From Scytonema tolypothrichoides VB-61278 (lineage in GTDB: Bacteria > Cyanobacteriota > Cyanobacteriia > Cyanobacteriales > Nostocaceae), in the NCBI RefSeq assembly GCF_000828085.3, contig NZ_JXCA02000027.1, positions 337,273 to 401,272 on the forward strand: 64,000 nt of DNA, given 5' to 3'. The notes beneath the pieces are model-generated. The model searched no databases. It saw only the letters and a program-made list of their open reading frames with translations, and had not been told where the DNA came from. Every line of letters begins with the position of its first letter. Position 1 is the first letter of the stretch. A program made the translations under genes and the position numbers. This document shows positions 29,086 through 64,000 of this stretch, in pieces.

Positions 29086-30525
29086 ATGGTTAGTCCACAG
29101 AACAATCTATTTCGCAAAAAAGCTTTAGAGCATTCATCTTCACCTGAACGACTGGATCAGCTCATGCAAGTTGTTAGTCCTATGAAGTGGCTACCTTTGG
29201 CTGCGCTAGGCTCATTAGTTGCGGCGGGGCTTGCATGGAGTGTTGTGGGTCGTATCCCGATTACGGTTACAGGTCAGGGGGTGCTTGTTTTTCCCAGCAA
29301 GGTTGTAGCGTTTCAGTCACCAATCTCAGGTCAGTTGCAAACAATAAATTTACGTGTTGGGGATTTCGTCAAGAAAGGACAAGTACTGGCAACAATTGGT
29401 CAAGGGGAACTGCAAAAGCAACTTTTGCAGCAGCACGCCAAGCTAGTGGAACTAGAAACGCAGAATCAGAATGCTAGCTTGCTTCAAGGTCAACGCAGTA
29501 ACTTGGAAATCAAGGCGATGCAACAGCAACGTCTCAGTTTACAGCAACGCCTTTTGCAAGCTCAATCTTTGAGTCCAATTATCAGAGAAAAAGACATAGG
29601 CGCTATTAAGCAGCAGCGACAAAACTTACAGCAACGCATACAAGAAGCTAAAGCTCTGGCTCCTACTCTTAAGGATAGACTCGACAGGCGTAAACAGCTC
29701 AAACTTGAAGGCGCAATTTCAGAAGATACACTGCTTGAGGCACAACAAACTTACTTGGATGGTATCAAAAAAATCGCTGATTTTGAAGACCAATTAAAGC
29801 AACTAGACATCAATCAAGTTCAAGCAGAAAAGTCCTACCGCGAAAATCTCAGCCAGATTGCTGAACTCAAAACTCAATTGAAGGAACTCGACAGCAAGGA
29901 AAAAACTGTGGCTGAGCAAAATTTTCAATCTTCAATGACCCGAAAAAATGAAATTCAGGAAGTAAAGCGCAATATTGCTCAGTTAGAACTGCAATTAAAA
30001 AACAACAGCCAGATAACAAGCCAACACACAGGACGCGTTTTGGAAATCACTGCAACTCCCGGACAAGTTTTGAGTCCAGGAACCCGCATTGGAACTATAG
30101 AAGCACAAAAGCCATCCGCCAAGTTGGTTAGTATCGCATTTTTGCCCGTCAGCGAAGGCAAGAAGGTTAAAAAAGGTATGAAGCTGCAAATAACCCCCTC
30201 CACAGTTAAGCGGGAACGCTTTGGCGGAATTGTGGGAACGGTTACCAAAGTCTCAGCCTTTCCGATTACTAAAGAAGGCGCATCTAATCTGATAGGCAAT
30301 CCTGAAATCGTGGAAAGTCTCATATCACAAGGTCCTCATGTCCAAATTCTCGCCGAACTTCAACCAGACACCTCCACCTTCAGCGGCTATCAGTGGTCTT
30401 CTTCCAAGGGTCCACAGATGAAAATGTCTCCTGGAACGACTACCTCTGTACGAGTCACCGTTGAGGAACAAGCCCCAATCACGTTTGTCTTCCCCATCCT
30501 GAAATCCTGGAGTGGCATTTATTAA
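29086..30525 (+). CDS. HlyD-type adaptor of a NHLM bacteriocin secretion system
   Basis: 479 residues. One membrane helix at about 43-65 (LPLAALGSLVAAGLAWSVV) is followed by a lipoyl-like half (VVAFQSPISGQLQTINLRVG). A coiled-coil hairpin spans about 115-310, rich in Gln, Leu and Lys (QQQRLSLQQRLLQAQSLS). Then come the second lipoyl half (HTGRVLEITATPGQVLSPGT) and a beta-barrel region. It links an inner-membrane ABC exporter to the envelope. The N-terminal layout (MVSPQNNLFRKKALEHSSSP) is that of the NHLM family adaptor. It acts with the two ABC proteins downstream. Confidence 0.92.
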   Translation: MVSPQNNLFRKKALEHSSSPERLDQLMQVVSPMKWLPLAALGSLVAAGLAWSVVGRIPITVTGQGVLVFPSKVVAFQSPISGQLQTINLRVGDFVKKGQVLATIGQGELQKQLLQQHAKLVELETQNQNASLLQGQRSNLEIKAMQQQRLSLQQRLLQAQSLSPIIREKDIGAIKQQRQNLQQRIQEAKALAPTLKDRLDRRKQLKLEGAISEDTLLEAQQTYLDGIKKIADFEDQLKQLDINQVQAEKSYRENLSQIAELKTQLKELDSKEKTVAEQNFQSSMTRKNEIQEVKRNIAQLELQLKNNSQITSQHTGRVLEITATPGQVLSPGTRIGTIEAQKPSAKLVSIAFLPVSEGKKVKKGMKLQITPSTVKRERFGGIVGTVTKVSAFPITKEGASNLIGNPEIVESLISQGPHVQILAELQPDTSTFSGYQWSSSKGPQMKMSPGTTTSVRVTVEEQAPITFVFPILKSWSGIY

Positions 30526-30782: not shown

Positions 30783-33038
30783 ATGCTACTAAAAAAACAC
30801 AAATTGTTTACGCATAAAGGTAGACGGCGTCGTACTCCCACTCTTCTACAAATGGAAGCGGTAGAATGTGGTGCTGCGGCTTTAGGTATTATTTTGAGTT
30901 ATTATGGTCGAATTGTACCACTGGCAAAACTTCGTCAAGATTGCGGAGTTTCGCGGGACGGTAGTAAAGCCTCTAATATCCTCAACGCTGCTCGGAGCTA
31001 CGGACTGAAGGCAAAAGGCTTTAAGTTAGACTTAGAAAGTCTGGTTCAATTGCAATGCCCATACATAGTCTTTTGGAACTTCAACCATTTCCTTGTGGTA
31101 GAGGGATTCGGCAAAAAGCGTGTTTATCTCAATGACCCTGCTAGCGGACCACGTACTGTCTCTCTACAAGAATTTGATGAGGCGTACACAGGTGTTGTCC
31201 TAGTTCTGGAACCCGGTCCAGAGTTCAAAAAAGGAGGACACAAACCCAGCACGCTGTTAGCTTTATGGCAACGATTGCAGAGGTCTGGTGGAGCACTTGC
31301 TTTTTCTGTGCTGGCGGGATTCGTACTTGTGATTCCCGGACTGGCGATGCCAGCATTTTCCCAGGTATTTGTAGATAATATTTTGATTCAGGGCAGAGAA
31401 GAATGGTTGCGACCGTTAATTTTAGGGATACTCCTGACAGCAGGGCTGATGGGACTTTTGACACTACTACAGTTGCAATCTCTGCGTCACATGAAAATAA
31501 AACTGTCTGTGGGGATGTCTAGTCAGTTCCTGTGGCACATTCTGCGTCTACCTGTCAGTTTTTACGATCAACGGTTTGCTGGGGAAATCAGCAACCGTGT
31601 TAACCTCAACGACAAGTTAGCTAATATCCTTTCCGGAAAGTTAGCGACTACGGTGATTGCAGCGGTAACGGTCATTTTTTATGCAGTGGTCATGCTGCAA
31701 TATGACGTGGTACTGACCTGGATTGGAATAGCCTTTGTTGTCGTGAATCTCCTTGCCTTGCAATGGGTAAGAAGGGGGCGTGTGGATGCCAATATGAGAT
31801 TACAACAGGATGAAGGAAAAGTTGCCGGAGTATCCATTTCTGGTCTTCAGAGTATAGAAACACTTAAGGCATCTGGTTTGGAGTCAGATTTCTTCTCTCG
31901 ATGGGCGGGCTATTATGCTAAAGCAATTAACGCTAAGCAGGAAATGGATGTAGCTAATCAGACTTTGGGGGTGTTGCCATCTTTCCTTTCCACAATTTCC
32001 TCTATGCTACTTTTGGTCGTAGGTGGCTTCCGGGTTATAGATGGGTATCTCAGCATTGGAATGCTAGTAGCATTTCAGAGTCTCATGCACGAGTTTTTGC
32101 AGCCCGTCAGTAATCTTGTTACTCTTGGAAGCGACCTCCAAGAAGTGGAAGGCGATTTGACTCGTTTAGATGATGTCTTACACAACCCAACAGATTCGCA
32201 ATTGGAGAAGAGGACAAGGGGACAAAACAATTCAAAATTCAAAATTCAAAATTCAAAATTAGAAGTTTCTCCCTCATCGCCCTCATCTCCTCATCCTCAG
32301 CTTAAATTGCAGGGATATGTCGAGTTCAGGAATGTTACATTTGGTTACAACCGTACTGCCCCTCCCTTGATTGAAAACTTTAATTTCTCACTCAAACCTG
32401 GTCAGCGAGTTGCTTTGGTGGGGGGAAGCGGTTCTGGCAAATCTACTATTGCTAAACTAGTTTGTGGGTTGTATGAGTCTTGGCAGGGAGAAATTTGCTT
32501 CGATGGTAAACCAAGAGAGCAAATTCCACAACAGGTGCTTGTCAATTCTATTGCTTTTGTGGAGCAGGAGATTTTTCTGTTTGCAGGCAGTATCAGGGAC
32601 AATTTGACCTTATGGGACACTACAGTACCTGATAGTCACTTAGTGCGGGCTTGTCTTGATGCAGCAATTCACGATGTTGTCCTCTCGATGCCAGGAGGCT
32701 ACAGTACCGAACTCCTAGAAGGTGCTACTAATCTCAGTGGCGGTCAGCGACAGCGCTTGGAAATTGCCCGCGCTTTGGTAAATAACCCTGCCATCCTAGT
32801 GATGGATGAAGCAACCAGCGCCCTTGATACAGAGACGGAAAAAATCATTGACCGTAAACTCCGCCAGCGAGGTTGTACTTGCATTATCGTGGCGCATCGG
32901 TTGAGTACTATCCGAGATTGCGATGAAATCATTGTCCTCGAACGGGGAAAGGTGGTTCAACGAGGAACTCATGAAGAATTAAAGCAAGTTGAGGGTGCAT
33001 ACTTGCAATTGATTCGTAGTGAGGGAGAAGCGCTTTAA
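30783..33038 (+). CDS. C39-peptidase ABC transporter for bacteriocin export and leader cleavage
   Basis: 751 residues. The C39 peptidase domain (about 15-145) has Gln23, Cys29 (QMEAVECGAAAL), His102 (NFNHFLVVEGF) and Asp118 (LNDPASG), so the catalytic set is complete. Six membrane helices follow (about 165-440). The ATPase domain has Walker A VGGSGSGKST, signature NLSGGQRQRLEIARAL and Walker B ILVMDEATSALD. It should cut precursors after a GG motif and pump the product across the inner membrane. Candidate substrates are the four GG-leader precursors at 60.4-61.6 kb. A heptamer repeat is translated between the membrane and ATPase domains. Confidence 0.95.
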   Translation: MLLKKHKLFTHKGRRRRTPTLLQMEAVECGAAALGIILSYYGRIVPLAKLRQDCGVSRDGSKASNILNAARSYGLKAKGFKLDLESLVQLQCPYIVFWNFNHFLVVEGFGKKRVYLNDPASGPRTVSLQEFDEAYTGVVLVLEPGPEFKKGGHKPSTLLALWQRLQRSGGALAFSVLAGFVLVIPGLAMPAFSQVFVDNILIQGREEWLRPLILGILLTAGLMGLLTLLQLQSLRHMKIKLSVGMSSQFLWHILRLPVSFYDQRFAGEISNRVNLNDKLANILSGKLATTVIAAVTVIFYAVVMLQYDVVLTWIGIAFVVVNLLALQWVRRGRVDANMRLQQDEGKVAGVSISGLQSIETLKASGLESDFFSRWAGYYAKAINAKQEMDVANQTLGVLPSFLSTISSMLLLVVGGFRVIDGYLSIGMLVAFQSLMHEFLQPVSNLVTLGSDLQEVEGDLTRLDDVLHNPTDSQLEKRTRGQNNSKFKIQNSKLEVSPSSPSSPHPQLKLQGYVEFRNVTFGYNRTAPPLIENFNFSLKPGQRVALVGGSGSGKSTIAKLVCGLYESWQGEICFDGKPREQIPQQVLVNSIAFVEQEIFLFAGSIRDNLTLWDTTVPDSHLVRACLDAAIHDVVLSMPGGYSTELLEGATNLSGGQRQRLEIARALVNNPAILVMDEATSALDTETEKIIDRKLRQRGCTCIIVAHRLSTIRDCDEIIVLERGKVVQRGTHEELKQVEGAYLQLIRSEGEAL
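32229..32260 (+). repeat. Heptamer tandem repeat inside the C39 transporter gene
   Basis: ATTCAAA is repeated four times in tandem. It is translated in frame as the linker NSKFKIQNSKLE, followed by a Ser/Pro/His-rich stretch, between the membrane and ATPase domains. The same TTCAAAA runs occur in the non-coding sequence before and after the gene. Confidence 0.8.
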
Positions 33039-33072: not shown

Positions 33073-33206
33073 AGCGTTGCTGAATTTGGGCATGAATTGC
33101 GTTTGTCAAGAGATTTTTAATTTTTCCAACGCCTGTAGAGACGTTGCATGCAACGTCTCTACAAAATCGTGATTTTCTCAATTCATATCTTGATTCAGCA
33201 ACGCCC
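33073..33206. mobile_element. MITE copy 2 (GGGCGTTGCTGA family)
   Basis: The left end is degenerate (AGCGTTGCTGAAT); the right end is ATTCAGCAACGCCC. Flanks AAAAAATC on both sides are a target duplication. It has an internal 30-bp palindrome (33134-33163) with arms TGTAGAGACGTTGCA. It lies between the two ABC transporter genes and ends 34 bases before the second gene's start. Confidence 0.85.
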
Positions 33207-33240
33207 AAAAAATCTATTTTTAATTGCACAGAAGCAACTC

Positions 33241-36210
33241 ATGCTTAATCAAACTAAGTTAAAAACTCCACAGGAACAACAGTATCTTTTTAAAGGTAAT
33301 GAACCAATATTGCTAGATGACCCACAGACGATTTGGATTGTGAAATCTGGTTCAATAGCACTATTTGCCATCAAGGTCAAACATGGTATTACAGAAGGTT
33401 CTCGCCGTTATTTATTTAGCGTCGGAGCATCAGAGGCGATGTTCTCAACAGCACCAAGTTCTCAGGACGAAGTACACCAAATTCTGGCGGTGTCGATGGA
33501 GGAGACAGAACTCATCAGAGTATCAAAAGAAGATTTTAGCAAGTGGATTGTTAACGATGATGGCGCACAGTGCCCGCCCCTTTGGGGTCATGGCAAGGCA
33601 CTCACTTATATAGAGAATTGGATTCATCAACTTAGCTCAGTACTGTCCAACATTACCGCTCCCAAGCTTCCAGTCAAGCCTGAGGGCATCAACTACTTTG
33701 CTTTAGGCAATGGTGATATCTTTCAGCCTCAACAAGATACCGTATCCTGGGTACAAATTCAGCAAGGAACTGCCAAATGGATGGGGTTTGAGGAATTGCT
33801 GTTCTTCCGGTCATCCGGAATATTGCCGTTAGATACTCGAATGTGGTTGCAGGCTACGGACACGGTTGAACTATCATGTGTGAACACCTCTGCAATCAAA
33901 GATGCAGATATCTTAACAGACAGTTTGAACCTCCTACAGACGTATTTCCTTGACTGCGTTGAGTTATTAGAACAGCAGGAAATAACCGCAGAATTACGTA
34001 GATTCCAGGAAAGGGAACGTCTCAATTATCAGGTAATGGAGGAGACACTGCAAGAACTGTCATCCGTACTGCAACCACGGAAAACAGTGTATTACCCAAC
34101 GGTAACACCGACCGACGACCCAGACCAAGCCCTACTTACTGCTGCTGGTGCAGTGGGGCGAGCTTTGGGGCTTAAGATTTGTCCTCCTGCTAAGTCGGAA
34201 GATATCAGACGGGTTCAAGATCCTTTAGAGGCGATCGCCCGCGCCTCACGAATACGGATGCGTCAAATTACATTAACTGATAAGTGGTGGAAAAAGGACA
34301 CTGATCCAATGCTAACCTACACAGTGGCAGACAACCATCCGGTCGCTCTGTTGCCCGTGTCTGACGCCCGTTACGAGATTTTCGACCCAGTCGAGCACAC
34401 CCGCATCCCCGTGAATGCCCGTAGTGCATCCAAGCTAGCCCCCCATGCCTACGTATTTTATCGCCCTTTGCCCGATAAAAAACTCAAAACCCTGGATATG
34501 CTTAAGTTCGCGCTGCGGGGTCACTTTAGGGAACTCATTGTCATCTTGTTGACTGGAATTGCCACCACTGTGCTGGGGATGCTGACTCCAACAGCCACCG
34601 CCATCCTTATCGATAACGCAATCCCGGATGCTAAGCGAGAATTGTTGCTGCAAATCGCTTTCGGTCTGTTGGCTGCTGCCTTTGGGGAAGCAATTTTTCA
34701 ACTTACCCAAGCGTTTGCCATCATTAGGCTGGAAACTTTTGCCGACTCTTCCATCCAAGCGGCAGTATGGGATCGACTATTGAATCTCAAGGCGTCCTTT
34801 TTTCGCTCCTACTCAATCGGTGATCTCAATTCTCGGGTGAATGGCATTACTCAAATGCGCGAGAAACTGAGTGGGACTGTTTTAAAAACCATTTTTTCCA
34901 GCTTTTTTTCTTTGTTAAATCTGGGACTGCTATTTTACTATAATACTTCACTGGCAATGATCGCCTGTGTTGTAGCTGTTGTGAATATTGCCGTTACCAT
35001 TGTCTCTGGTATCCTTACTCTTCATAAAGTTCGTCCCCTGCTAGAGATAGAAGGACAGCTCTCTGGTGTTATGGTGCAGCTAATCAATGGAGTCGCCAAA
35101 CTCCGAGTTGCTGGATGTGAGGCACGAGCTTTTGCCTACTGGGGTAAACAGTATAGCCATCAGCTAAAACTGATGCTGAGTACACAGGGCATTGAAGACA
35201 TCGTCACTGTCATCAACAAAATCCTGCCACCTTTAACAAATGCGGTTCTGTTTTGGTTCGCTGTACAGGCGTTGCATGGAACGTCTCTACAGCAACCAAA
35301 TGGGGGAGGGTTGTCTACTGGCACATTCCTGGCATTCAACGCTGCTTTTGGCATATTTATTAACGGAGCAACTAGCCTAAGTAACACAATTGTGGAAGTT
35401 TTGGAAGTTTTGCCTTTGTGGAATCGCCTTCAGCCAATTCTTTTGGCGACACCAGAATTAAATTCTAGCAAGACCGACCCTGGCAGATTATCAGGTAGAG
35501 TGGTTGTAGACCATGCAATTTTCCGCTATCGAAATGATGGACCACTGACGCTGGATGATGTGACTATCCGCGCTGAGCCGGGAGAGTTTATTGCAATTGT
35601 TGGACCTTCTGGAAGCGGTAAATCTACTTTGTTCCGGTTACTACTGGGATTTGACTTTCCAGAATCTGGCACTATTTACTACGATGGACAAGACTTAGCT
35701 GGGCTAGATGTGAATGCAGTACGCCGACAGTTAGGTGTCGTGATGCAAAACAGCCGGATGATGTCAGGTTCTTTCTTCGAGAACATTGCCAGCGGTGCCC
35801 TTGTAACTATGGAAGAAGCTTGGGAAGCCGCGCAAGCCGCAGGTTTGGCGGATGATATTCAAGCGATGCCAATGGGTATGCACACTGTCATCAGTGAGGG
35901 GGGTACTAATCTCTCTGGGGGACAAAGGCAACGGTTGTTGATTGCGCGGGCACTAGTGTTGAAACCCCGGATTTTGCTGTTTGACGAAGCCACGAGTGCG
36001 CTAGATAACAAAACGCAGGCGATTGTTAGTCAAAGCTTAGAGCGGTTACAGGTGACGCGAATTGCGATCGCTCACCGATTCAGCACAATCCGTCATGCTA
36101 ACCGTATTTATGTACTGCAAGACGGTAGAGTTGTGCAGCAGGGAAATTTCGAGCAACTCGCAAGTCAACAGGGGTTGTTTGCTCAGCTCATGGCTCGACA
36201 AATGCTTTGA
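33241..36210 (+). CDS. Second NHLM-type ABC transporter (permease-ATPase with N-terminal extension)
   Basis: 989 residues from ATG at 33241 (MLNQTKLKTPQEQQYLFKGN); a frame reaching 33148 begins inside a MITE and is unlikely. Residues 1-400 are a cytoplasmic extension with a cNMP-like fold (WIVKSGSIALFAIKV) and a C39-like region (AAGAVGRALGLKICPP) lacking the catalytic Cys. The membrane domain spans about 440-720 and the ATPase about 750-985: Walker A VGPSGSGKST, signature NLSGGQRQRLLIARAL, Walker B ILLFDEATSALD. It pairs with the C39 transporter, the usual two-ABC NHLM set. A repeat fragment is translated near residue 680. Confidence 0.93.
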   Translation: MLNQTKLKTPQEQQYLFKGNEPILLDDPQTIWIVKSGSIALFAIKVKHGITEGSRRYLFSVGASEAMFSTAPSSQDEVHQILAVSMEETELIRVSKEDFSKWIVNDDGAQCPPLWGHGKALTYIENWIHQLSSVLSNITAPKLPVKPEGINYFALGNGDIFQPQQDTVSWVQIQQGTAKWMGFEELLFFRSSGILPLDTRMWLQATDTVELSCVNTSAIKDADILTDSLNLLQTYFLDCVELLEQQEITAELRRFQERERLNYQVMEETLQELSSVLQPRKTVYYPTVTPTDDPDQALLTAAGAVGRALGLKICPPAKSEDIRRVQDPLEAIARASRIRMRQITLTDKWWKKDTDPMLTYTVADNHPVALLPVSDARYEIFDPVEHTRIPVNARSASKLAPHAYVFYRPLPDKKLKTLDMLKFALRGHFRELIVILLTGIATTVLGMLTPTATAILIDNAIPDAKRELLLQIAFGLLAAAFGEAIFQLTQAFAIIRLETFADSSIQAAVWDRLLNLKASFFRSYSIGDLNSRVNGITQMREKLSGTVLKTIFSSFFSLLNLGLLFYYNTSLAMIACVVAVVNIAVTIVSGILTLHKVRPLLEIEGQLSGVMVQLINGVAKLRVAGCEARAFAYWGKQYSHQLKLMLSTQGIEDIVTVINKILPPLTNAVLFWFAVQALHGTSLQQPNGGGLSTGTFLAFNAAFGIFINGATSLSNTIVEVLEVLPLWNRLQPILLATPELNSSKTDPGRLSGRVVVDHAIFRYRNDGPLTLDDVTIRAEPGEFIAIVGPSGSGKSTLFRLLLGFDFPESGTIYYDGQDLAGLDVNAVRRQLGVVMQNSRMMSGSFFENIASGALVTMEEAWEAAQAAGLADDIQAMPMGMHTVISEGGTNLSGGQRQRLLIARALVLKPRILLFDEATSALDNKTQAIVSQSLERLQVTRIAIAHRFSTIRHANRIYVLQDGRVVQQGNFEQLASQQGLFAQLMARQML
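35271..35291 (+). repeat. MITE-palindrome half embedded in ABC transporter coding sequence
   Basis: GTTGCATGGAACGTCTCTAC matches one arm of the palindrome in MITE copy 2 (33134-33163) except for one base. It is read in frame as ALHGTSLQQ, just after the transporter's membrane-domain helix, in a spacer containing a GGG run. Confidence 0.7.
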
Positions 36211-49341: not shown

Positions 49342-49423
49342 CTTTTTGTCCTCTGAGTATCTTTACTGACTGTCTATGGCGCGAACGGTGAGACCAAACA
49401 TTCAAAATTTTTTTACATCCCCC

Positions 49424-49454
49424 TTGACTCTCCAGTTAAATAGAGGATTTAAGG
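49424..49454 (+). promoter_or_regulatory. Second MerR-type promoter
   Basis: TTGACT (49424-49429), a 19-base spacer with CTCCAGTTAAATAGAGGAT (half of the dyad conserved), and TTAAGG (49449-49454). It has the same plan as the promoter at 44767. It would drive the HMA pseudogene and perhaps the downstream lipoprotein and RND genes. Confidence 0.82.
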
Positions 49455-49534
49455 TGATTTTAGATGAGGTGGAGTTATTCAATCACACATCTAACTCCAC
49501 GATAAATTATCTCAAAAAAGGTTATTTACAGCTA

Positions 49535-49782: not shown

Positions 49783-49874
49783 TTTGTAATTGATTATATT
49801 ACCATCAGCTATTACTTTGTACTCTGCTGATAGCTGATCTACAGAAATTTGCACTATCTTCCAGGTAATGTTTC

Positions 49875-50756: not shown

Positions 50757-50830
50757 CAAAGAACTGGTACTACAGTTCTGATGCATTCTGATTTCTCTAG
50801 GTTTTACATCGCTTGAATTGTTGGTGAGTT

Positions 50831-52225: not shown

Positions 52226-52358
52226 TTAGCCAAAAGCATATTTTTGCAGCAAAAGCAAGTCATCATTGTTTATTTTTTCATTGACCGATAGTTCTTTGAT
52301 GGTACAAGCCTCCACATTTATCCCTGGAATTCATCCAAAATCTAAAATCGATTGACCT

Positions 52359-55300: not shown

Positions 55301-55490
55301 GACTTTGATCGGGAGCTATCCGCTGCTTGTTGCGACAGGAGCTGGATCTGCCAGCCGACTGTCATTGGGGACGGCGGTTTTTGGCGGGATGTTCGTTTCT
55401 ACGTTCTTGAGTTTATTTGTAGTGCCAATACTCTACATCATTATTCTTAAGATTCGTCAACAACTGGGGCGATCGTCACTCAGTTTCTAG
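52359..55490 (+). CDS. RND efflux permease (HAE-1/AcrB type)
   Basis: 1043 residues. Twelve membrane helices surround two large periplasmic loops, as in AcrB. It begins MFADFFIKRPVFAIVCSLIV, with TLPVEQYPDISPVQISVTANYVGAS and INGVEGMRYMNSTSSNDG. The TM4 proton-relay Asp pair is present (LFGLTLATGMVVDDAIIIVEDVVR). It ends in IILKIRQQLGRSS. Sequence features are those of the HAE-1 drug/hydrophobe family rather than the metal HME family, so drug or amphiphile export is most likely despite the copper context. The last 15 bases overlap the convergent kinase-like gene. Confidence 0.94.
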   Translation: MFADFFIKRPVFAIVCSLIVLVLGLISIPTLPVEQYPDISPVQISVTANYVGASAQIVEETVTSVLERQINGVEGMRYMNSTSSNDGNSTIIITFEQGYDINVAASDVQNRVLLAQPKLPEVVQKTGVAVTKQSSGIVLAMALYSSDDRYDDTFISNYADLYVLDSLRRINGVGNVLSFGERRYAMRIWLDPNRLAGRNLTAQDVVNALNQQNLQLGIGAIGQPPAPDGQKFQIDLQAVGRLREANEFENIILKAGNDGTLVKLKDVGRAELGAENYSTFARYNGHISVGYQIIQIPGSNALEIAKAAKAEMARLAKNFPPGLTYEIPYDSSRFVEASFWEVVKTLIESILLVVGVIFIFLQDWRTTIVPAIVIPVSLIGTFAFVKVFNFSLNSLTLFGLTLATGMVVDDAIIIVEDVVRLLEEKSISPRQAASEAMHELFGAVIATSLVLMAVFVPVAFFPGTTGQLYKQFALTIAFSTTLSTFNAITFTPAVSAILLRRGQQPRGWLGWFFARVNGLLDWMRRGYQRILGTVTRFKMVVLLLFTVSLILTGWLYLRVPQAFLPEEDQGYFVNLIQGPDGVSLNYTRSVVMKAEKELLNVPEIEGVFAMGGVGFSGNTPNRGLIMTPLKSWSERQKPEQSVSAILNRVRPPLMGIPEAPVLAVNPPTIQSLGSVGGFVFQLQDRGDQSNRDMNALDQVKNKLISRANQTPGLQGVFSTYTANAPQLMIEVDRSKAEALQIPIDEIFSTLQTFIGSRYVNDFNEFGRTYRVYVQADSQFRSNPKDVGRLYVRSRLGNMIPLSNVVTMKSTTGAQTINHYNLYRSIEINGAAAPGFSSGQAIAAMEKLAAEILPANFGFEWSGISLEEVESGGQAPIIFSLGVFFVFLVLAAQYNNFVDPLIIMLAVPLAVLGALSAQSLRGLYNDVYCQVGLVMLIGLASKNSILIVEFANQLREQGLSITKAVVQAAQARLRPILMTTVSTLIGSYPLLVATGAGSASRLSLGTAVFGGMFVSTFLSLFVVPILYIIILKIRQQLGRSSLSF

Positions 55491-56387
55491 GTCTTTCGTT
55501 TCACAGGACAGTTCTGCTTGTGGTGGTATACTATGCATGCGTAGTGCATGAACACAATTGCGAATCTCTTGCATGGTCGTGACTCCTAGGCTTTGGGCTT
55601 GTGCCAAAAACTTGTGTGCTTGACTCGGGTCAATAGACCAGAGTTTTAACGCGCTTTGCAACTGAATATTGATAGCAATCAATGTATGTCCCAGTGCATC
55701 ATAGCTTTCATATGCAACGCGCTGGCGTGCTTGGAGTGCAGTGAGTTCCTCCTGTTGTTGGGTATACTGTCGCCATCTTTGTTGCTCATGCCCTAGTTGC
55801 TGTTGCATCTGTTGCACCATTACTATGTACTGGATCAACTGCATCAGTAGTAACAGTACAATTGCAAACCAAAAAACATCACTCCACTGGCTCAAGAAAT
55901 TTTGTAGTGACTGATTAAACAACACAGTTGTGTCAGTGCTACCAAGCTGTTGCACTCTTGTGAGTAACATAATTGCCAAAACACATCCTGCCAATGTCCA
56001 ACGCCCGGGCAATGCTAACAAAAACCAACTGCGAATCACGACGATTAGCAACAGAACTGGCAACAGCCACAACTGTCCACTTAAAGCCAGCCATGCCAAA
56101 ACTAAACTAAACTGTATGCCAATGTACAGCATTTTGGCGGCAAATCTACCACTGGGTAATATGCCACCGATCAATGCAAATACAGCTAGCATGACCAGTT
56201 CGAGTGCCTTGGGGAGCCATAATTGGGGCAATAACAGAGGCTCTAGGGAGATAGCCGCGATCGCGCTTTGCGCCGTCAGAGGAGTAGCGTCTGCGAAGGA
56301 GAAGGCGATCGCAATCAACAGCAACCCCCATTCCAAATAAAGCAAAAAGCGAACGGGACGGGATTGAGTTTTTAGCCAGTGATTCAT
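55476..56387 (-). CDS. Degenerate histidine-kinase-like membrane protein lacking His and ATPase
   Basis: About 303 residues from ATG at 56387 (MNHWLKTQSRPVRFLLYLEW). Six or seven hydrophobic helices span about 15-195. A coiled coil and HisKA_3-like region follow (QRVAYESYDALGHTLIAINIQLQSAL and TTMQEIRNCVHALR). The phospho-acceptor His of the usual E-x-H-D-x-x-G-H motif is Tyr229 here, and the HATPase domain is absent because the gene ends there, overlapping the RND gene by 15 bases. It is probably a truncated relic or a regulatory decoy; rearrangement next to the RND gene would explain it. Confidence 0.75.
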   Translation of the reverse strand: MNHWLKTQSRPVRFLLYLEWGLLLIAIAFSFADATPLTAQSAIAAISLEPLLLPQLWLPKALELVMLAVFALIGGILPSGRFAAKMLYIGIQFSLVLAWLALSGQLWLLPVLLLIVVIRSWFLLALPGRWTLAGCVLAIMLLTRVQQLGSTDTTVLFNQSLQNFLSQWSDVFWFAIVLLLLMQLIQYIVMVQQMQQQLGHEQQRWRQYTQQQEELTALQARQRVAYESYDALGHTLIAINIQLQSALKLWSIDPSQAHKFLAQAQSLGVTTMQEIRNCVHALRMHSIPPQAELSCETKDLETE

Positions 56388-56825
56388 AGCAACAGCATAA
56401 GGGAAGTAATACCAATTCTCCAAGAAGATGCACTTTATTTTTAAAACGTAGACGCGCAGCGGTGAGGGGGTCGCAGCTCTTAAGGTTACCGTCGATTGCG
56501 ACCCCCCGAACGCGAGTGCGTCTGGTGCAGGAGATACCCGGAGGGCTTCCCGCAGGGTACCGCCAAGAACGCCAAGAAAAGAGCAAGAAGAGAGATTTAA
56601 TTATTTAGTGCAAGTTTATAGAGAATCGGTATAAGCAGCGACAACAATACACAATGTTTCAGTCAGACTCGCAATTCTTTCGGTTGGACTTTGTACATAA
56701 AAGCCAATTCGATTGCTAATAAGATGATCTGTAAGCAAGATGATCTGTGTAGTGAAAGTGCATGCTACGTCTCTACATATGTACCATGCACTTTCACTAC
56801 ATATAAGGCGCAAAACTATCGCTGT
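56388..56825. other. 438-base intergenic region with repeats
   Basis: It contains a GC-rich palindromic repeat (about 56505-56580, CCCGCAGGGTACCGCCAAG), a direct repeat of GATGATCTGT (56723 and 56740) and the strong inverted repeat at 56748-56801. No gene is seen. It separates the degenerate kinase from the 3' end of lanM. Confidence 0.6.
56748..56801. terminator. Inverted repeat after lanM, possible terminator
   Basis: TGTAGTGAAAGTGCATG (56748-56764) and CATGCACTTTCACTACA (56785-56801) form a perfect 17-bp stem with a 20-base loop containing ACGTCTCTACA, the sequence of the MITE palindrome arm. It lies 25 bases after the lanM stop. It could terminate lanM or be a dispersed repeat. Confidence 0.65.
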
Positions 56826-59800
56826 TTAATCCCACAACAACACTGAAGGAAGGAATTCCGGATATGCTAACCTTAGTAGTTGATAACCGATTCCAGAGGT
56901 CCCTTGAAAGAAACCAGGGTTGTAAATATCTCCGGAAAATTCAGAAAACAGATCAAAACTACCAACTTGCTTTGCCCTTGCTACAATCTGTGCTGCCTGT
57001 TTTTGAACAGTATTCAACAAATCCGGACGGGACAGCTTGCAAGCTGCGACTAATAGTACTTCCATTCTGCCAAAGTTACCGCAACACAGATGGTCAATGT
57101 TTTGTAAACCAAATTGTTGCGTTGTATTTAAGGCGACTGCAATTTCTTGACGAATTTCTACTGTATCAAGTATCGAAAGACCTCCCAAACGGGCTAAACC
57201 AATGCCAGGAGCACCATGACACCAACTCGTCATAAAGGATAGTTTACTCTTGTTAAGGGAAAAATTTCGTACATCTGGCCAATTACCGTCATTTGGGGAG
57301 AAGACGCTGCGTTCGTAGGCGATCGCTTCTTCTGCTGCTTCCAGAAAAACCGGATCTTGTGTCGTTTTGTACAATCGCAGTAAGGCGTAGGCAATGCCCG
57401 CTGCACCATGAGAAATTCCCGTTGCTAACTTGCCTTCCAAAGTTGCCCAAGCTCTAAATCCAGTCTCGCTCTTGGTACGATTATTGAGTAGGTGATAACC
57501 TAAGGCTTGGGTTTGCTCGAGAATGGCTGGGTTTGGCTTTGCTTGGTACAAAGCGAGTAAACCTAGTATTGTTCCTGCTGCGCCTGCTATTGTGTCAAAG
57601 GAGCGATCGCTCTCAATACTTTCTTGGGTTATCAATGAAGCTGCAAGACTCGCAATATCGAGAAGCTCCGGTTCATCCAAAAACTGACTAACTCGTACTA
57701 ATGTATAAAGAATAGAGCCATTACCAGTAGCTCCACCAATACCTATTTCCTTGGTAAATTTTGCTTGGTCATTCGGCTGTGTGTGCTGTAAGGTTTTTTT
57801 CAGGTCTTGCAAGGCGCTCAATGCTAAATCTCGAAATCCCGCGTCACCAGTAACTTTTGCCAACGCTGCTAAAAACAAAGCGACACCGCAAACACCATCG
57901 TACAAGCCATAGCCCAAAGGCTGAAGTTGCATCCGTTGAGCTTTAGGGAGGTATCCCATACCAATCCAGGTCACACTACCATTGGTGGCGTAAATTGCTC
58001 TTTGTTGCAGTTCTTTGGCAATCTCTACTGCCTCTTCTACCAGTTGTGCTTGTGTTAAAGGAGTGATTGCATTGAGATCCGAAGCAACACTAACACGCTG
58101 AGTGGGCGTAATATTAGTCATACCACGAGCAACCCGTGAGTAAAAAGAACCCCGAATAATTCCAATCTGTTGAGCTAAATCTCCATCATTAAGCTGCTGT
58201 AGACGAGAAATCATGCGGTTATAGCTAGGTTCTTTAAAATATCCCTCAATCACCAACTCAGAGTTGAGTGTCAAAGCATCACTGCTTGAGTCAGCAAAGA
58301 AATAAGGAATATCCATTTGTTCCATAGCTTGCAGTTCTAGTGCAAGCAATGACCAGATCCTAGGTTTTTCTTCTGCTGCTAAAAATGCCCGACTCAGCAC
58401 ATCAAGTTCAATACTGCGGTCTATACCATGCTGCAAAAATTGTGGATAGAGGGTTTTCTCCAAAACATGACCATAGACGTGAGTATTACGAAACAAAAAC
58501 CGTACTCTCTGATGAGCTAGACCAGCTAAAGGACTATCAGTTCCTAAAAGAGCTTCTCGTCGTTTCATCAAGAACTGATACATCTTTTGGAAACCATCTA
58601 CAATTTCATTAACATAATCACTAGGTAACAAGGCAATGCCATTGAGCGAAGGTACATTGTTTGCAGCTGACATAATACCAGGCTCATACTCCAATGCCAT
58701 GTTGTCAGTATTGATGTTCTGCCACTTTTGTATGCGAATAGGAATTTCTTGCTCACCAAATCCTCCCAAACCACTAATATCGTGAGCTTTGCCTCCATCT
58801 GCCCCAAATTCCCATCTTGGCAGTAGTCCAGTCCGTAGCACTGAATCTTCAAACAACTGCTCATTCGCCAGAGATTGTGCCCCTACTTCCTCTGTAGGAT
58901 TAACCTCGCGAGCATAGGGATGCAGAAGGGTTTCCAAATCTACCAGCACTGGATGTTCTCCACAGGCGATGAGATTTTCCTGATGGCAGTCATTGCCTTG
59001 GAGCAAGTAAACTAAACACAGAAGCATCCCGACACGCTGATAGTATCGCTGTGCGGCTGCTTCGTCTTCACAGGGCAAATGCTCTACATACTCCATCCAG
59101 CCATGAGTCTTGCAGTCGATAACTTTGATTATCTTGAACGGGTGTAGAACGACGGGATGCAACGTCAAGACAAAATGCTGATTACACCAAGATAGTAACT
59201 GAAAATACGTAGCTTCTAAAGTTAAGCCTCTAGGTTTGTATATTACCTTCAATCCAGACTCAAAAGTCACAGCCATCACGGAACGCCCTCTGTTGTGAGG
59301 ATCGGATAGTTCAAATTGGATTGCAACGACAGAAGCTGTCTTTTCTTGGAATGTTTGCTGGATAGTTGGTAAATCTGATGCTAATCGCTGAATAAATTCT
59401 GCTTTTTCTTCTACCCAAAAATCTATTGTCGTCGCTATAGCCCGTGCTAACACACTGTACTTTTGAAAGAAAGATAACAGTTCTTTTGTTTTTAAGTCTT
59501 CAATAAAAGTTTGGTACTGCACATTAGAATGTTCATCTTGCTGTTGGGTTAAGGAAATGTCAGCAGATTGCTTCTGTGCTTTAAATTTTGAAAACTCAAG
59601 GTCTAAAGCCCGGACACCAAGAGACGCTAACTTCCATAGCAGCTGACGTTCCAAGCTGATGTGGACTGCTTGAGATAACAATTGCCAACTAGCACCGACC
59701 TGTGCAATTAGTTTTTCTCGCGCTATATAAACAAAGGGCAGATAAACTTCTTCAAAGGGAATTGGGTTTTCGGTTTCTAAACAGCGATTAGTACTTGCAT

Positions 59801-60110
59801 AAGCTCTGTCCCAATCAGTTTGCAACGCTTCCCGCAAAGTTTCCGTCCAAACGGGGAGTTGTTCTTCATTGACGAGACGGACAGCACCAAGAACTTTAAC
59901 AATAGTGCCAGAATCCAGTTCATCCCAAACAAGGCGTTTGGCTAACTTTTCTGAATTGCTTTGTGCAACCACCTGACACCACGCTTTCAACCGAGACATA
60001 GCTAACTTGTTATCTTCTGCTTCATCTGGAACAAAGCAATAACCCAATCTCTCAACGAGTCTACTGGCTTGCTCAGCTATTTTGAGTAAATCTTGCTGTG
60101 AAACATGCAT
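56826..60110 (-). CDS. lanM: Class II lanthipeptide synthetase LanM (CCG-type zinc site)
   Basis: 1094 residues from ATG at 60110 (MHVSQQDLLKIAEQASRLVE), with AAAGGA upstream; a TTG start 19 codons earlier is possible. The dehydratase half has kinase-like motifs: VIYKPRGLTLEATYFQLLSW, LLQGNDCHQENLIACGEHPV and VDLETLLHPYA. The LanC-like cyclase half has YGLYDGVCGVALFLAAL, SWCHGAPGIGLARLGG (Cys964) and HLCCGNFGRMEVLLVA (Cys1009, Cys1010). The third zinc ligand is Cys where most LanMs have His (CHG), which places it in the CCG group that includes ProcM. It dehydrates Ser/Thr and forms thioether rings on the precursors encoded divergently 266 bases away. Confidence 0.94.
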   Translation of the reverse strand: MHVSQQDLLKIAEQASRLVERLGYCFVPDEAEDNKLAMSRLKAWCQVVAQSNSEKLAKRLVWDELDSGTIVKVLGAVRLVNEEQLPVWTETLREALQTDWDRAYASTNRCLETENPIPFEEVYLPFVYIAREKLIAQVGASWQLLSQAVHISLERQLLWKLASLGVRALDLEFSKFKAQKQSADISLTQQQDEHSNVQYQTFIEDLKTKELLSFFQKYSVLARAIATTIDFWVEEKAEFIQRLASDLPTIQQTFQEKTASVVAIQFELSDPHNRGRSVMAVTFESGLKVIYKPRGLTLEATYFQLLSWCNQHFVLTLHPVVLHPFKIIKVIDCKTHGWMEYVEHLPCEDEAAAQRYYQRVGMLLCLVYLLQGNDCHQENLIACGEHPVLVDLETLLHPYAREVNPTEEVGAQSLANEQLFEDSVLRTGLLPRWEFGADGGKAHDISGLGGFGEQEIPIRIQKWQNINTDNMALEYEPGIMSAANNVPSLNGIALLPSDYVNEIVDGFQKMYQFLMKRREALLGTDSPLAGLAHQRVRFLFRNTHVYGHVLEKTLYPQFLQHGIDRSIELDVLSRAFLAAEEKPRIWSLLALELQAMEQMDIPYFFADSSSDALTLNSELVIEGYFKEPSYNRMISRLQQLNDGDLAQQIGIIRGSFYSRVARGMTNITPTQRVSVASDLNAITPLTQAQLVEEAVEIAKELQQRAIYATNGSVTWIGMGYLPKAQRMQLQPLGYGLYDGVCGVALFLAALAKVTGDAGFRDLALSALQDLKKTLQHTQPNDQAKFTKEIGIGGATGNGSILYTLVRVSQFLDEPELLDIASLAASLITQESIESDRSFDTIAGAAGTILGLLALYQAKPNPAILEQTQALGYHLLNNRTKSETGFRAWATLEGKLATGISHGAAGIAYALLRLYKTTQDPVFLEAAEEAIAYERSVFSPNDGNWPDVRNFSLNKSKLSFMTSWCHGAPGIGLARLGGLSILDTVEIRQEIAVALNTTQQFGLQNIDHLCCGNFGRMEVLLVAACKLSRPDLLNTVQKQAAQIVARAKQVGSFDLFSEFSGDIYNPGFFQGTSGIGYQLLRLAYPEFLPSVLLWD

Positions 60111-60376: not shown

Positions 60377-60577
60377 ATGCAAGACGAACTGAAGAATGTT
60401 ATTTCTCAAGCGATGAACACTAACTCTGAGTCTGAGCCAGAACAAACGACACCAATTGCTGAAGAATTATCTGATAAAGAGCTAGAAACAGTGGCTGGTG
60501 GTGTTTGTGTAGGTTGGTCATTTGCCAAAGTTTGCATTGGTTGGAGTTTTATTCGTAACGCTAACAAGATGGTGTAA
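60377..60577 (+). CDS. lanA1: Lanthipeptide precursor 1
   Basis: 66 residues; TAGGAGA ribosome site 9 bases before the ATG. The leader (42 residues) starts MQDELKNVISQAMNTNSESE and ends ELSDKELETVAGG, a double-glycine cleavage motif suited to a C39 peptidase. The core (24 residues) is VCVGWSFAKVCIGWSF then IRNANKMV. It has two Cys (core 2 and 11) and two Ser (core 6 and 15), each Cys three residues before a Ser, plus an internal repeat V-C-x-G-W-S-F. The C-terminal RNAN is shared by all copies. It is the first gene of the array and divergent from lanM. Confidence 0.93.
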   Translation: MQDELKNVISQAMNTNSESEPEQTTPIAEELSDKELETVAGGVCVGWSFAKVCIGWSFIRNANKMV

Positions 60578-60638
60578 GCCAATTAGTCACAACTTCAAGA
60601 AACAAATCGCAATTAATAAATACATAGGAGACAAAATC

Positions 60639-60886
60639 ATGCAAGACGAACTCAAGAATGTTATTTCTCAAGCGATGAACACTAACTCTGAGTCTGAGCC
60701 AGAACAAACGACACCAATTGCTGAAGAATTATCTGATGAAGAGCTAGAAACAGTGGCTGGTGGTGTTTGTTTATACACATCTAGATGTGTATAAGAGACA
60801 GGGCTGGTGGTGTTTGTGTAGGTTGGTCATTTGCCAAAGTTTGCATTGGTTGGAGTTTTATTCGTAACGCTAACAAGATGGTGTAA
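60639..60886 (+). pseudogene. lanA2: Lanthipeptide precursor 2, broken by adapter sequence
   Basis: The leader is intact from ATG at 60639 to VAGG, but the core becomes VCLYTSRCV and stops at 60792-60794 because a 31-base synthetic Tn5/Nextera mosaic-end sequence (60771-60801) has been placed there. The 16 bases before it (GGCTGGTGGTGTTTGT, 60755-60770) are repeated right after it (60802-60817). Deleting 60771-60817 gives an intact 66-residue precursor ending at 60886 with the same core as copy 1. The break is almost surely not biological. Confidence 0.93.
60771..60801. other. Nextera/Tn5 mosaic-end adapter (artefact)
   Basis: AGATGTGTATAAGAGACAG (60783-60801) is the full 19-base synthetic mosaic end. 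It is joined head-on to its partial reverse complement TTATACACATCT (60771-60782). The natural Tn5 ends differ, so this is library-preparation sequence left in the assembly, not a transposon. Confidence 0.96.
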
Positions 60887-60947
60887 GCCAATTAGTCACA
60901 ACTTGAACAAACAAATCGCAATTAATAAGTACATAGGAGACAAAATC

Positions 60948-61148
60948 ATGCAAGACGAACTCAAGAATGTTATTTCTCAAGCGATGAACACTAACTCTGA
61001 GTCTGAGCCAGAACAAACGACACCAATTGCTGAAGAATTATCTGATGAAGAGCTAGAAACAGTGGCTGGTGGTGTCTGTTTGTTAGGAAGTCGTCGCAAA
61101 ATATGCATTCTTTGGACTAAGATTCGTAATGCTAACGAATTAGTGTAG
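60948..61148 (+). CDS. lanA3: Lanthipeptide precursor 3
   Basis: 66 residues with TAGGAGA before the ATG. The leader is nearly identical to copies 1 and 2 (MQDELKNVISQAMNTNSESE to VAGG). The core is VCLLGSRRKICILWTKIRNA and then NELV. Cys2, Ser6, Cys11 and Thr15 keep the two C-x3-S/T units, and the RNAN tail is conserved. The middle of the core is basic, unlike copy 1. The sharp contrast between an unchanged leader and a changed core fits diversified RiPP precursor families. Confidence 0.94.
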   Translation: MQDELKNVISQAMNTNSESEPEQTTPIAEELSDEELETVAGGVCLLGSRRKICILWTKIRNANELV

Positions 61149-61361
61149 TCCACAGATTAACAAGCCATATGAAGTCCAGGTGATGAGTTTATACACTTGG
61201 GTTAATGGTAGCTGTCATTCTAAAGGGTGTAGCTACACAACTAAAGCCTGCACAGGATGGCTTAGTTCGTATAGTCCCAGGCTTTAGACTGAGGGCTTAT
61301 CTTAATGTCTGTAATCCTTGGATTTCATATTACAACTTATTAGAAAGTAAGAGAGAAGAAA

Positions 61362-61559
61362 ATGCAAGACGAACTGAAAAATGTTATCTATCAAGCTATG
61401 AACAATAGCTCCGAAGTTAAACCAGAACAATCTGAAGGGATTGAAGAATTATCTGATGAAGAGCTAGAAACAGTGGCTGGTGGTATTTGTTTGCTGTGGA
61501 CTACCCCCATAGTATGCCTTCGTTACACTCAGTTTCGTAACGCTAACAAGTTAGTGTAA
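61362..61559 (+). CDS. lanA4: Lanthipeptide precursor 4
   Basis: 65 residues. The leader is more diverged (MQDELKNVIYQAMNNSSEVK, ending EELSDEELETVAGG). The core is ICLLWTTPIVCLRYTQF and then RNANKLV. Cys2, Thr6, Cys11 and Thr15 again form two C-x3-S/T units. It lies 213 bases after copy 3, with a spacer holding no gene, and is followed by a hairpin terminator. It is the oldest or most diverged member of the array. Confidence 0.93.
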   Translation: MQDELKNVIYQAMNNSSEVKPEQSEGIEELSDEELETVAGGICLLWTTPIVCLRYTQFRNANKLV

Positions 61560-61831: not shown

Positions 61832-63076
61832 ATGAAAAATTTGAAACTCCTCCAAGGTATCATTACATCAGGGGTGATTGCGACAACTGCCGCAATGGGC
61901 AGCTTTATTACCACGGTTCAGGCAGCTACCTTCACTTTGCCAATTGAAGCAGCAGCCAAAGCCACAGGAATTGATGTATTACGAGACCGTTACGGTCTGG
62001 ACGGCACGGGAATTACCATCGGTGTGATATCTGATAGCTTTGCCACAGCAACAACCTTTGACGCCTCTGGCAATTTGGATACCTATACGACCAACATCGT
62101 CAATGGCTACCTACCTTCTGGTATTAATGTGCTAAAGGACTACGCGCAACCTGATGCCCAGGATGAGGGTCGCGCTATATCGCAGATCATCCATGCTGTC
62201 GCTCCAGGAGCTAGGTTAGCGTTTTACACAGGTACGGGCGGCGTGGATTCCTTCAGTCAAGCCATTCAAGCTCTGGCGTCTGCTGGAGCAGATATCATTG
62301 TGGATGATATCGGTTTGCTCCCCCAGAATACTCCTGATGCACCCTCAAATTTGCTAGATCTAGAGCCTCCTAATGGTTCTATTAACCAAGCAATTAACTC
62401 GGTATTCAATCAGGGAATTTCTTACATCACTGACGCTGGTAATGATTTTCCCGATACTCCAATATACGGACACACAAATAACCCAAATGCACTGAGTGTC
62501 GGAGCAGTGTACTATGGAAACGCCCAATTCTACTCAAACCGAGCATTTGGTGTTATTGTAGAGCAGGGACAACTCGAACCCTTTTCTTCAGAAGGCAACC
62601 CAAGTTCTGTAAAGCCTGATGTTGTCGCTCCAGATGGGCTACCAATTTCCTTCAATTTGGGTGGAGGCTCTCGTCCTTATGATGACCCCCGCTTCTTCAG
62701 CTTCTTCGGGACTTCGATATCGGCTCCGTTTACAGCTGCAGTCGCAGCACTGCTACGACAGGCAAACCCAAGCGCAACGCCGACGGAAATCTACAATGCG
62801 CTGAGAAATACAGCTTACAACCCAACGCCCGGCTTTGACTCCAGACGTGGCTTTGGTTTGATTAGGGGAGATCAAGCTATTCTCGCACTGGGTGTGCAAT
62901 CCAAACCAACAACTATCCCTGAACCTTCTGCTGCCCCAGCTTTGCTGTGTATTAGCGTTCTGATTGCTGGTCTACTTCTGAAACGGAATCAGGTAAATTC
63001 CCAAGCCATAACTCCACCCAGCGATCGCCTCATGTTAGTTCACTCAGGACTGAAGCAGTTATCCAAAGCCTCCTGA
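61832..63076 (+). CDS. S8-fold serine protease with acidic triad and PEP-CTERM tail
   Basis: 414 residues. Signal peptide at 1-31 (GSFITTVQAA). The subtilase-like domain has Asp68 (IGVISDSF), Glu112 where subtilisins have His (DEGRAISQII), Asp158/159 in the oxyanion region (IIVDDIGL) and Ser295 (FFGTSISAPFTAAV). Glu and Asp at these positions recall sedolisins rather than classical subtilisins. Near residue 363 the PEP-CTERM signal reads TIPEPSAAPALLCISVLIAG then LLLKRN, but a further 30-residue tail follows. It is 272 bases after the precursor array and in the same direction, so it could process exported peptide (inference). Confidence 0.85.
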   Translation: MKNLKLLQGIITSGVIATTAAMGSFITTVQAATFTLPIEAAAKATGIDVLRDRYGLDGTGITIGVISDSFATATTFDASGNLDTYTTNIVNGYLPSGINVLKDYAQPDAQDEGRAISQIIHAVAPGARLAFYTGTGGVDSFSQAIQALASAGADIIVDDIGLLPQNTPDAPSNLLDLEPPNGSINQAINSVFNQGISYITDAGNDFPDTPIYGHTNNPNALSVGAVYYGNAQFYSNRAFGVIVEQGQLEPFSSEGNPSSVKPDVVAPDGLPISFNLGGGSRPYDDPRFFSFFGTSISAPFTAAVAALLRQANPSATPTEIYNALRNTAYNPTPGFDSRRGFGLIRGDQAILALGVQSKPTTIPEPSAAPALLCISVLIAGLLLKRNQVNSQAITPPSDRLMLVHSGLKQLSKAS

Positions 63077-63579: not shown

Positions 63580-64000
63580 CTATGCAGTACTTGATTGATC
63601 ACGGTGTTGGTTTCGCCACACTTGAGGAGTCGTTCCAAAGCTGATGCGAAACTGACGAAACAAACAGCCTGTATATTGATAGCCTACTGCTTCAGCAATC
63701 TGCTCTACTGACTGGTTAGTTTCCAAAAGCAAGGAGCATGTCTTTGCCATCCGGCGCTGGGCAATCCATTGATGCACCGTTTTTCCCGTCTGACGTCGTA
63801 CGAGATCTGTTAAGTAAGCTGGGGCATAACCAACCGCTTGGGCTACATCACTTAAGTTTATTGACTGGTCATAATTGGCTTCAATAAAGTCGAACACTTC
63901 TTTAAGTTGAGGGCAAACAGGAAAGATTGATTGGGGGTTTGCTGGAAGAGTAGTCTCAGCAGCAGGTAGTGTTGTAACTTGTTGTGATTTATCAGCAGGA
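63580..64000 (-). CDS. AraC-family transcriptional regulator (5' end outside window)
   Basis: The frame is open from the window edge at 64000 to the stop at 63580, giving about 139 visible residues; the start lies beyond the window. The C-terminal double helix-turn-helix is clear: INLSDVAQAVGYAPAYLTDL and VEQIAEAVGYQYTGCLFRQF, followed by RISFGTTPQVWR. The preceding visible stretch (TTLPAAETTLPANPQSIFPV) is a linker. The N-terminal sensor is not visible, so the inducer is unknown. It may control the neighbouring lanthipeptide locus, but nothing in the sequence proves that. Confidence 0.9.
   Translation of the reverse strand, partial: PADKSQQVTTLPAAETTLPANPQSIFPVCPQLKEVFDFIEANYDQSINLSDVAQAVGYAPAYLTDLVRRQTGKTVHQWIAQRRMAKTCSLLLETNQSVEQIAEAVGYQYTGCLFRQFRISFGTTPQVWRNQHRDQSSTA

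Follow-up and report, generated by a model that had tools for sequence, protein, structure and literature searches.

In the nostolysamide system of Nostoc punctiforme PCC 73102, as described in a preprint (PMC13060382), the precursor NpuA is modified by NpuM, a ProcM-clade LanM with a three-Cys zinc site, and Cys lies on the N-terminal side of its ring partner; the Cys5-Thr9 ring was assigned by tandem MS and a Cys14-Ser18 ring was proposed. According to the same preprint, ProcM-clade LanMs, which are marked by the three-Cys zinc site, form rings in both directions. Likewise, a C-x3-S lanthionine ring (Cys79-Ser83) is formed by a cyanobacterial LanM in the MppE/MppM system of Moorena producens (PMC11791876), and LanII-2A of Scytonema hofmannii is reported as a cyanobacterial class II peptide with three dehydrations and two rings, whose leader is cut by LahT150 (PMC9576775). 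The prochlorosins (ProcA/ProcM) have a CCG zinc site and several precursors with a conserved leader and a variable core, as does the family considered here. Double-glycine precursors are also described for groups IV (LanM) and VI (S8) of the cyanobacterial bacteriocin clusters of Wang et al. from 2011 (PMC3140520). A 2023 survey reports NHLP leaders together with CHG enzymes and refers to previous mining based on ProcM, in which leaders were varied (PMC10027976), and Brasilonema CT11 is described as having one lantipeptide cluster without similarity to reported clusters (PMC7503407).

The locus analysed here lies in a 64,000-nucleotide stretch of Scytonema tolypothrichoides VB-61278 (the window). 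It differs from the nostolysamide system, with its one precursor, 78-aa Nif11 leader, 25-residue core, four partly overlapping rings and GNAT lipidation (PMC13060382), and from MppE/MppM, with a Nif11-like leader, a halogenase and other tailoring genes (PMC11791876). The prochlorosins have Nif11 leaders and many scattered precursors, whereas the window family has a two-unit core frame and, in most members, a conserved tail. LanM and the S8 peptidase occur together, and conserved so, in the window cassette, whereas they characterize separate groups in the classification of Wang et al. (PMC3140520). Our literature search found no description of a two-unit RNAN core, a shortened leader, and a cassette of LanM, S8 peptidase and regulator. 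An earlier note on this DNA had suggested a new lanthipeptide subclass; as a class this has to be given up, since the enzyme is a class II LanM and C-x3-S/T rings have already been reported, and the array represents a new core family within class II. That note had also passed over the S8 peptidase, the two-component genes, the NHLM exporter, the likely origin of the leader and the persistence of the tail in two loci that have neither a full LanM nor core Cys.

Methods

A profile built from the three intact precursor copies had matches in 14 of 149 genomes, including the own genome. When 388 genomes of the order were searched, 63 had matches to the core profile and 66 to LanM, most of them leader-only or more distant; beyond the own genome, the core-profile search gave core-end matches without an inner stop only in G176, G258 and G246. 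A search of 217 genomes of the family with the S8 peptidase, with matches in 19, added further loci, and a pattern scan of contigs confirmed at least five loci.

The core statistics are based on 42 distinct cores from the collected loci. These counts leave out array repeats with the same core (L043, L044, L048, L060), window copy 2 and the near-copy L075 6994; copies in G011, G005 and G023 that are incomplete or contain stops; additional records of genomes already included (L057-L059, L061); precursors whose leaders are of another kind (L052 3334, L073 6828, L090 1787, L096, L098); and precursors that accompany more distant LanMs (L053-L056, L075 2376, L076-L083). Retained despite their misfit were L042 14619 (His-rich, without Cys), L048, L049, L074, L093 and L097. 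For the unit spacing, the core alignment was additionally made without L042 14619, L048, L049, L060 and L075.

Results and Discussion

The precursor array and its diversification

The features of the locus are listed in Table 1. The intact copies 1, 3 and 4 encode the cores VCVGWSFAKVCIGWSFIRNANKMV, VCLLGSRRKICILWTKIRNANELV and ICLLWTTPIVCLRYTQFRNANKLV, respectively, behind leaders of the double-glycine type with the consensus MQDELKNVI...ELSDxELETVAGG. Each of these 24-residue cores has Cys at positions 2 and 11 and Ser or Thr at positions 6 and 15, followed by R-N-A-N-x-x-V, so translation of the three copies bears out the frame read in the earlier note, and the V-C-x-G-W-S-F repeat that it saw in copy 1 is present. 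It had counted four precursors with a conserved core; three are indeed intact, but the core of copy 2 is unreadable, its frame being broken by an adapter sequence. A DNA pattern derived from the tail ends of the copies matches the window four times, including once behind the adapter, versus none in 100 shuffles. The intact copies were found in their own genome with E-values of 1e-41 to 1e-44, the same rows having built the profile model, and the profile search found no further array copies elsewhere in this genome at E-value ≤ 0.1. We regard the array as real, with three intact precursors and a total copy number of three or four, which is not certain. It is a tandem family; most of the related genes retain the putative ring positions and the tail, and a large part of the remainder is variable.

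Table 1. Features of the locus and its surroundings in the window, with the adjoining regulatory genes
Feature	Position	Strand	Remarks
Bacteriocin-type transport-associated protein	27906..29003	+	TIGR03896
NHLP system HlyD-like secretion protein	29086..30525	+	TIGR03794
NHLP export ABC transporter with peptidase domain, probable leader-cleaving exporter	30783..33038	+	TIGR03796, 1184.7 bits
Second NHLP export ABC subunit	33148..36210	+	TIGR03797; L046 and L049 have copies of 82-88% identity close to lanM
HisKA_3 protein	55476..56423	-	Downstream of lanM; 315 aa, with no ATPase among its listed domains
LanM class II lanthipeptide synthetase	56826..60110	-	TIGR03897, 1022.7 bits; WCHGAPG and LCCGNFG zinc motifs
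Precursor copy 1	60377..60577	+	66 aa; leader 42 aa to VAGG (60377-60502), core 24 aa (60503-60574)
Precursor copy 2 as assembled	60639..60794	+	42-aa leader, then adapter-broken frame ending ...VCLYTSRCV
Nextera/Tn5 mosaic-end adapter remnant	60771..60801	no strand	12 bases of one end and all 19 of the other
Post-adapter stretch	60802..60886	+	Identical to copy 1 leader end and core, through the stop codon
Precursor copy 3	60948..61148	+	66 aa; leader 42 aa, core 24 aa
Precursor copy 4	61362..61559	+	65 aa; leader 41 aa, core 24 aa
S8-type peptidase	61832..63076	+	414 aa; adjoins this precursor family in most related loci
Response regulator, AraC-type output	63580..64000	-	C-terminal part of 292 aa
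Rest of the response regulator, and 433-aa histidine kinase	Beyond the window (L089 7853-10002)		

The leaders of copies 1 and 3 differ in 2 of 42 codons, one of these differences being silent, whereas their cores before the tail differ in 11 of 17 codons, with 9 amino-acid changes. Copy 4 differs from the others in 14 of the 39 leader codons compared (8-9 amino-acid changes), and from copies 1 and 3 in 13-14 of the 17 core codons before the tail. Over all window core pairs, there are 9-13 amino-acid versus 1-2 silent differences in 17 codons. The earlier picture of nearly invariant leaders and varying cores holds for the leaders of copies 1 and 3 and for the greater divergence of the cores, but not for the leader of copy 4. 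Such a surplus of core changes is not seen in every pair from other loci: the copies of L044 differ from one another at 4-8 of 43 codons in the leader and 2-6 of 17 in the core, and between window copy 4 and L042_11259 the leader is the more divergent part (19 of 39 codons, against 4 of 17 in the core). Tandem duplication may have been followed by diversification of the cores under a fixed ring-and-tail frame. The family as a whole offers a natural library of peptides with constant putative ring positions and differing linkers.

Likely origin of the leader

The window leaders score below the cut-offs of the NHLP leader model TIGR03793 (12.5-15.3 bits, cut-off 50.9), the Nif11-type leader model TIGR03798 (15.2-16.9 bits, cut-off 32.3) and the CTB family bacteriocin model NF038167 (19.9-22.1 bits, cut-off 32); two copies score 12.0 and 14.2 bits with the mersacidin/lichenicidin model TIGR03898 (cut-off 23.5), copy 1 being unlisted. 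The long leaders of L043, L050, L051 and L052, on the other hand, reach 93.5-98.6 bits with TIGR03793, and TIGR03898 is passed by leaders of the long-leader relatives L043 (24.1 bits), L050 (26.3 bits) and L052_8159 (26.8 bits). Short and long leaders have the first 22 residues in common (profile comparison, E-value 5e-16), of which the first 14 lie outside the NHLP model, beginning as it does at leader residue 15-16, and a joint alignment shows that they also have the last 13-15 residues in common, with about 55 middle residues absent in the short leaders. The short leader thus appears to correspond to the two ends of a longer leader of the NHLP type. Because the leaders in the outer rows L076 and L077 look NHLP-like by eye, it would be simpler to assume that the middle was lost than that it was gained, in a LanM tree whose root is not fixed. 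One LanM clade is accompanied by a leader some 55 residues shorter than that of its sister clade. The long-leader relatives pair NHLP leaders with a CCG LanM, unlike the pairing reported in the 2023 survey (PMC10027976).

If G023 is Scytonema hofmannii, which is our guess, three different precursors of this genome are candidates for LanII-2A: L052_8159 (positions 8159-8545, a member of this family), L052:3334-3660 and L099 1489-1749. TIGR03898, the name that PMC9576775 gives LanII-2A, is matched by L099 at 75.4 bits in addition to L052_8159. With three Ser/Thr and two Cys, L052:3334-3660 fits the dehydrations of LanII-2A, but it has no match to TIGR03898. The one Lan and one MeLan reported for LanII-2A (PMC9576775) would be a misfit to two C-x3-Ser rings if it were L052_8159.

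The LanM enzyme

The lanM gene adjoins the array in divergent orientation. The listed open reading frame begins at TTG 60167; we chose the ATG at 60110, many homologues aligning from residue 20. Its TIGR03897 score lies well above the cut-off of 304, and with PF13575 and PF05147 also matched it has both the dehydratase and the cyclase that define class II. The LCCGNFG motif is found in 19 of the 20 rows of the LanM clade (L073 being unmatched), and the CHG of LicM2 aligns to its CCG; the outer LanM rows are mostly CCG as well, so the site is not exclusive to the clade of the window LanM. Judging from these domains and motifs, the enzyme is a class II LanM with a ProcM-like CCG zinc site. In a tree built without the partial L074 and with the root not fixed, the eight short-leader loci form one group (100/100) and the 11 long-leader loci another (100/98), and L075, with a 23-residue leader, falls outside both. 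A comparison with plasmid records gave 13 matches to LanM, all below 60% identity and none a member of its clade.

Predicted ring pattern of the cores

Over the 42 cores, 61 of 78 Cys have Ser or Thr at position +4. The count is 55 of 72 in 37 cores when the window and the two LanM-less loci are excluded, and 30 of 38 in the long-leader cores alone. Ser/Thr make up 14% of the background, shuffling the non-Cys residues gave a mean of 11.4, and none of 5000 shuffles reached 55 or 30; as the cores share descent and the counts are not independent, these figures express the strength of constraint and are not p-values. Two C-x3-[ST] units are present in 27 of the 42 cores, at a spacing of 9 (14 cores), 10 (5), 11 (4), 12 (2) or 13 (2) residues. 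Since the size of the unit is fixed while the linker varies, rings inside the units are favoured, and two Cys-x3-Dha/Dhb rings in series are the best-supported reading of the cores.

The serial small rings proposed in the earlier note agree with this predicted arrangement, but some homologues break the pattern, and the loss of the Cys-Ser/Thr spacing, which the note had named as telling against its reading, was found in part. Ser/Thr is missing at +4 for 17 of the 78 Cys; Cys is present without any C-x3-[ST] unit in L048, L051_8040, L074 and L095, and Cys outside such units occur in L049, L051_8781, L072_9322, L073_5280 and L075_7746. Both units of L095 10590-10970 and L051 8040-8417 read T-x2-C, with Cys on the other side of Thr. 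These two loci offer a direct test of how a CCG LanM chooses ring direction.

The three window cores and their 24-residue relatives also have an S/T6-x4-C11 spacing, which counts somewhat against the serial arrangement. An alternative topology would join S/T6 to C11 in the canonical direction, typical of most class II LanMs according to PMC13060382, and C2 to S/T15, giving overlapping rings. However, among the 27 cores with two units the distance from Ser/Thr to the second Cys ranges between 4 and 8 residues, with C-x3-[ST] remaining fixed, and with the window excluded no other offset between -8 and +8 from Cys exceeds 32%, the maximum being 12 of 38 at -5, against the 55 of 72 at +4. In addition, the single-unit cores L090 and L092 keep C-x3-[ST] alone, the second unit of L092 having neither the Cys nor the +4 Ser, and CCG enzymes are able to form rings with Cys on the N-terminal side (PMC13060382). 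We consider overlapping rings improbable compared with rings in series.

It has also to be considered that the cores are not modified in vivo, LanM being relictual and linear or disulfide peptides being handled by the S8 peptidase. Two loci that keep the precursor, the RNAN tail, the S8 peptidase and the regulator agree with this: L093 has a 34-aa LanM remnant, and in L097 LanM was not found within the 19 kb analysed, distant LanMs being present elsewhere in that genome. But it is these two that have no core Cys, which is present in 39 of 40 cores from loci with LanM (the exception being L042 14619), and the window LanM is full length, carries its zinc motifs and is 91% identical to that of L045. 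This makes unmodified cores very unlikely.

Two minor observations concern unusual cores. Those of L095 and L051_8040 would fit a simultaneous reversal of ring direction in their two units. L042 14619-14813 has the same short leader and the core HGHHHGHHHGHHHGHHHGHWKH, without Cys, Ser or Thr, and a C-terminal remnant of LanM lies nearby (14042-14248).

The C-terminal tail and the S8 peptidase

N[AG]N strictly ends 28 of the 42 cores, or 38 of 42 by a form loosened after seeing the cores. Arginine is present in 22 of the 28 strict tails and is spelled by five codons, so the conservation of the tail is at the protein level. L093 and L097 would indicate, as far as two loci allow, that the rings go with LanM and the tail does not.

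At an E-value ≤ 1e-100, the S8 peptidase was found at 20 places in 19 of the 217 genomes of the family, the own genome included. A double-glycine precursor lies within 2 kb on the same strand at all 20 (the copy in G011 carries stops); 18 have this precursor family and 16 this LanM (in G011 across two contigs). The peptidase is also present in three loci of another family (L072, L073, L074), and in L072 and L073 the precursor copies are separated by fragments of its 5' end, the kind of remnant expected from tandem duplication. In L096 (9491-9955) and L098 (10683-11165), the S8/regulator module has as its neighbour a long, Gly-rich precursor of the double-glycine type, and LanM is absent, which weighs against tying the module to a lanthipeptide cassette.

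The protein matches the subtilase family PF00082 with 82.6 bits, and S295, in a GTS/GSS motif, and N204 are invariant in 23 sequences, the window included; N204 is probably the oxyanion residue. The canonical HGT motif of the catalytic His is absent from the protein. An invariant D111-E112-G-R-A stands in all 23 sequences where we would expect the catalytic His, and D68 is Asn in L047. A PDB search found subtilases, with an unreliable alignment around the missing His. A structure model made with AlphaFold2 on a five-sequence alignment had a pLDDT of 27.6 and was discarded. The start of the protein is presumably signal-peptide-like, and we take its end to be PEP-CTERM-like.

The tail as a signature of the S8 peptidase was rejected: L096 and L098 (G468, G020) have the peptidase without an RNAN tail, and in L075, where an N-x-N tail is present, the match to S8 is only 37-39% and in pieces. 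L060 also has only a fragmented match (37-38%), but its array has no tail, which agrees with such a link. Since the link is not exclusive, we lowered our estimate of it, and consider it possible, though rather doubtful, that the RNANxx[VA] end is a ring-independent C-terminal processing signal and that the peptidase recognizing it is an exported S8-type enzyme in which Glu replaces the catalytic His. If true, this would be a lanthipeptide system with a second, extracytoplasmic maturation at the C-terminus, and the S8/two-component module would be one that is re-used with different peptides. The family also opens the conserved tail and the linked peptidase to experimental study.

Regulators, exporter and a model of the cassette

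The response regulator was matched in 21 of the 24 loci examined (not in L072, L073 and L090), and the histidine kinase in 16 of them, in a number of cases only partly; contig ends truncate some of the loci. The HisKA_3 protein also adjoins lanM in six related loci (L042, L044, L045, L046, L048, L060). Exporter genes 82-95% identical to those of the window lie near lanM in L046 and L049, and the window exporter set (27906-36210) probably serves the array despite its distance of about 25 kb. By eye, the region 45056-55490 appears to be concerned with metal handling and efflux, with a P-type ATPase, a MerR-like regulator and RND efflux genes.

The genes of the cassette, their motifs, their synteny and the pattern of conservation are read directly from the loci, and we think it probable that they constitute a class II lanthipeptide cassette with two serial C-x3-S/T rings, Gly-Gly export, an S8 peptidase and two-component control. 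In this model, the ProcM-like CCG LanM would bind the shared leader and dehydrate Ser/Thr 6 and 15, to which Cys 2 and Cys 11 would be added from the N-terminal side, giving two five-residue Lan/MeLan rings in series, with a variable linker between them and the linear RNANxxV tail behind the second. The NHLM transporter with its C39-type peptidase would cleave after Gly-Gly and export the peptide, the S8-type peptidase, itself probably exported, would act on it outside the cytoplasm, and the adjacent two-component genes would control the cassette. We infer every chemical step, the roles of the S8 peptidase and the tail, and the regulation, and for the product a bacteriocin-like or signalling role.

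An adapter remnant in copy 2

The sequence that breaks copy 2 contains the 19-base Tn5/Nextera mosaic end as printed in PMC8269240. The 7.9-Mb assembly contains 29 copies of this 19-mer, three of them single and the others in 13 pairs of abutting reverse and forward copies, and the reversed 19-mer used as a control has no occurrence in the same assembly. A 16-base duplication flanks the adapter in copy 2; among five other adapter junctions checked, the flanks overlap by 17, 149 and 158 bases in three and by 0 and 2 bases in two. Left of the adapter, copy 2 differs from copy 3 at 1 and from copy 1 at 2 of 132 bases, and right of it from copy 1 at 3 of 146. The block from copy 1 to copy 2 measures 262 bases and that from copy 2 to copy 3 309 bases, the difference of 47 being equal to 31 + 16. 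Since the mosaic-end adapter recurs across the assembly and the flank is duplicated here, we read the break in copy 2 as a probable assembly artefact. That the array of four as a whole is largely an artefact of repeated reads and adapter, as the adapter within copy 2 and the likeness of its left part to copy 3 and of its right part to copy 1 might suggest, is the least credible of the alternatives, for copies 1, 3 and 4 are unlike in core and flanks, the two-contig relative G070 (L044) has 13 copies, nine with identical cores, and arrays of three or four copies also occur in L043, L048 and L060. On the practical side, the finding flags adapter contamination inside a peptide gene. The adapter is also present at 28 other exact 19-mers of the assembly, some with duplicated flanks, where other genes may be broken.
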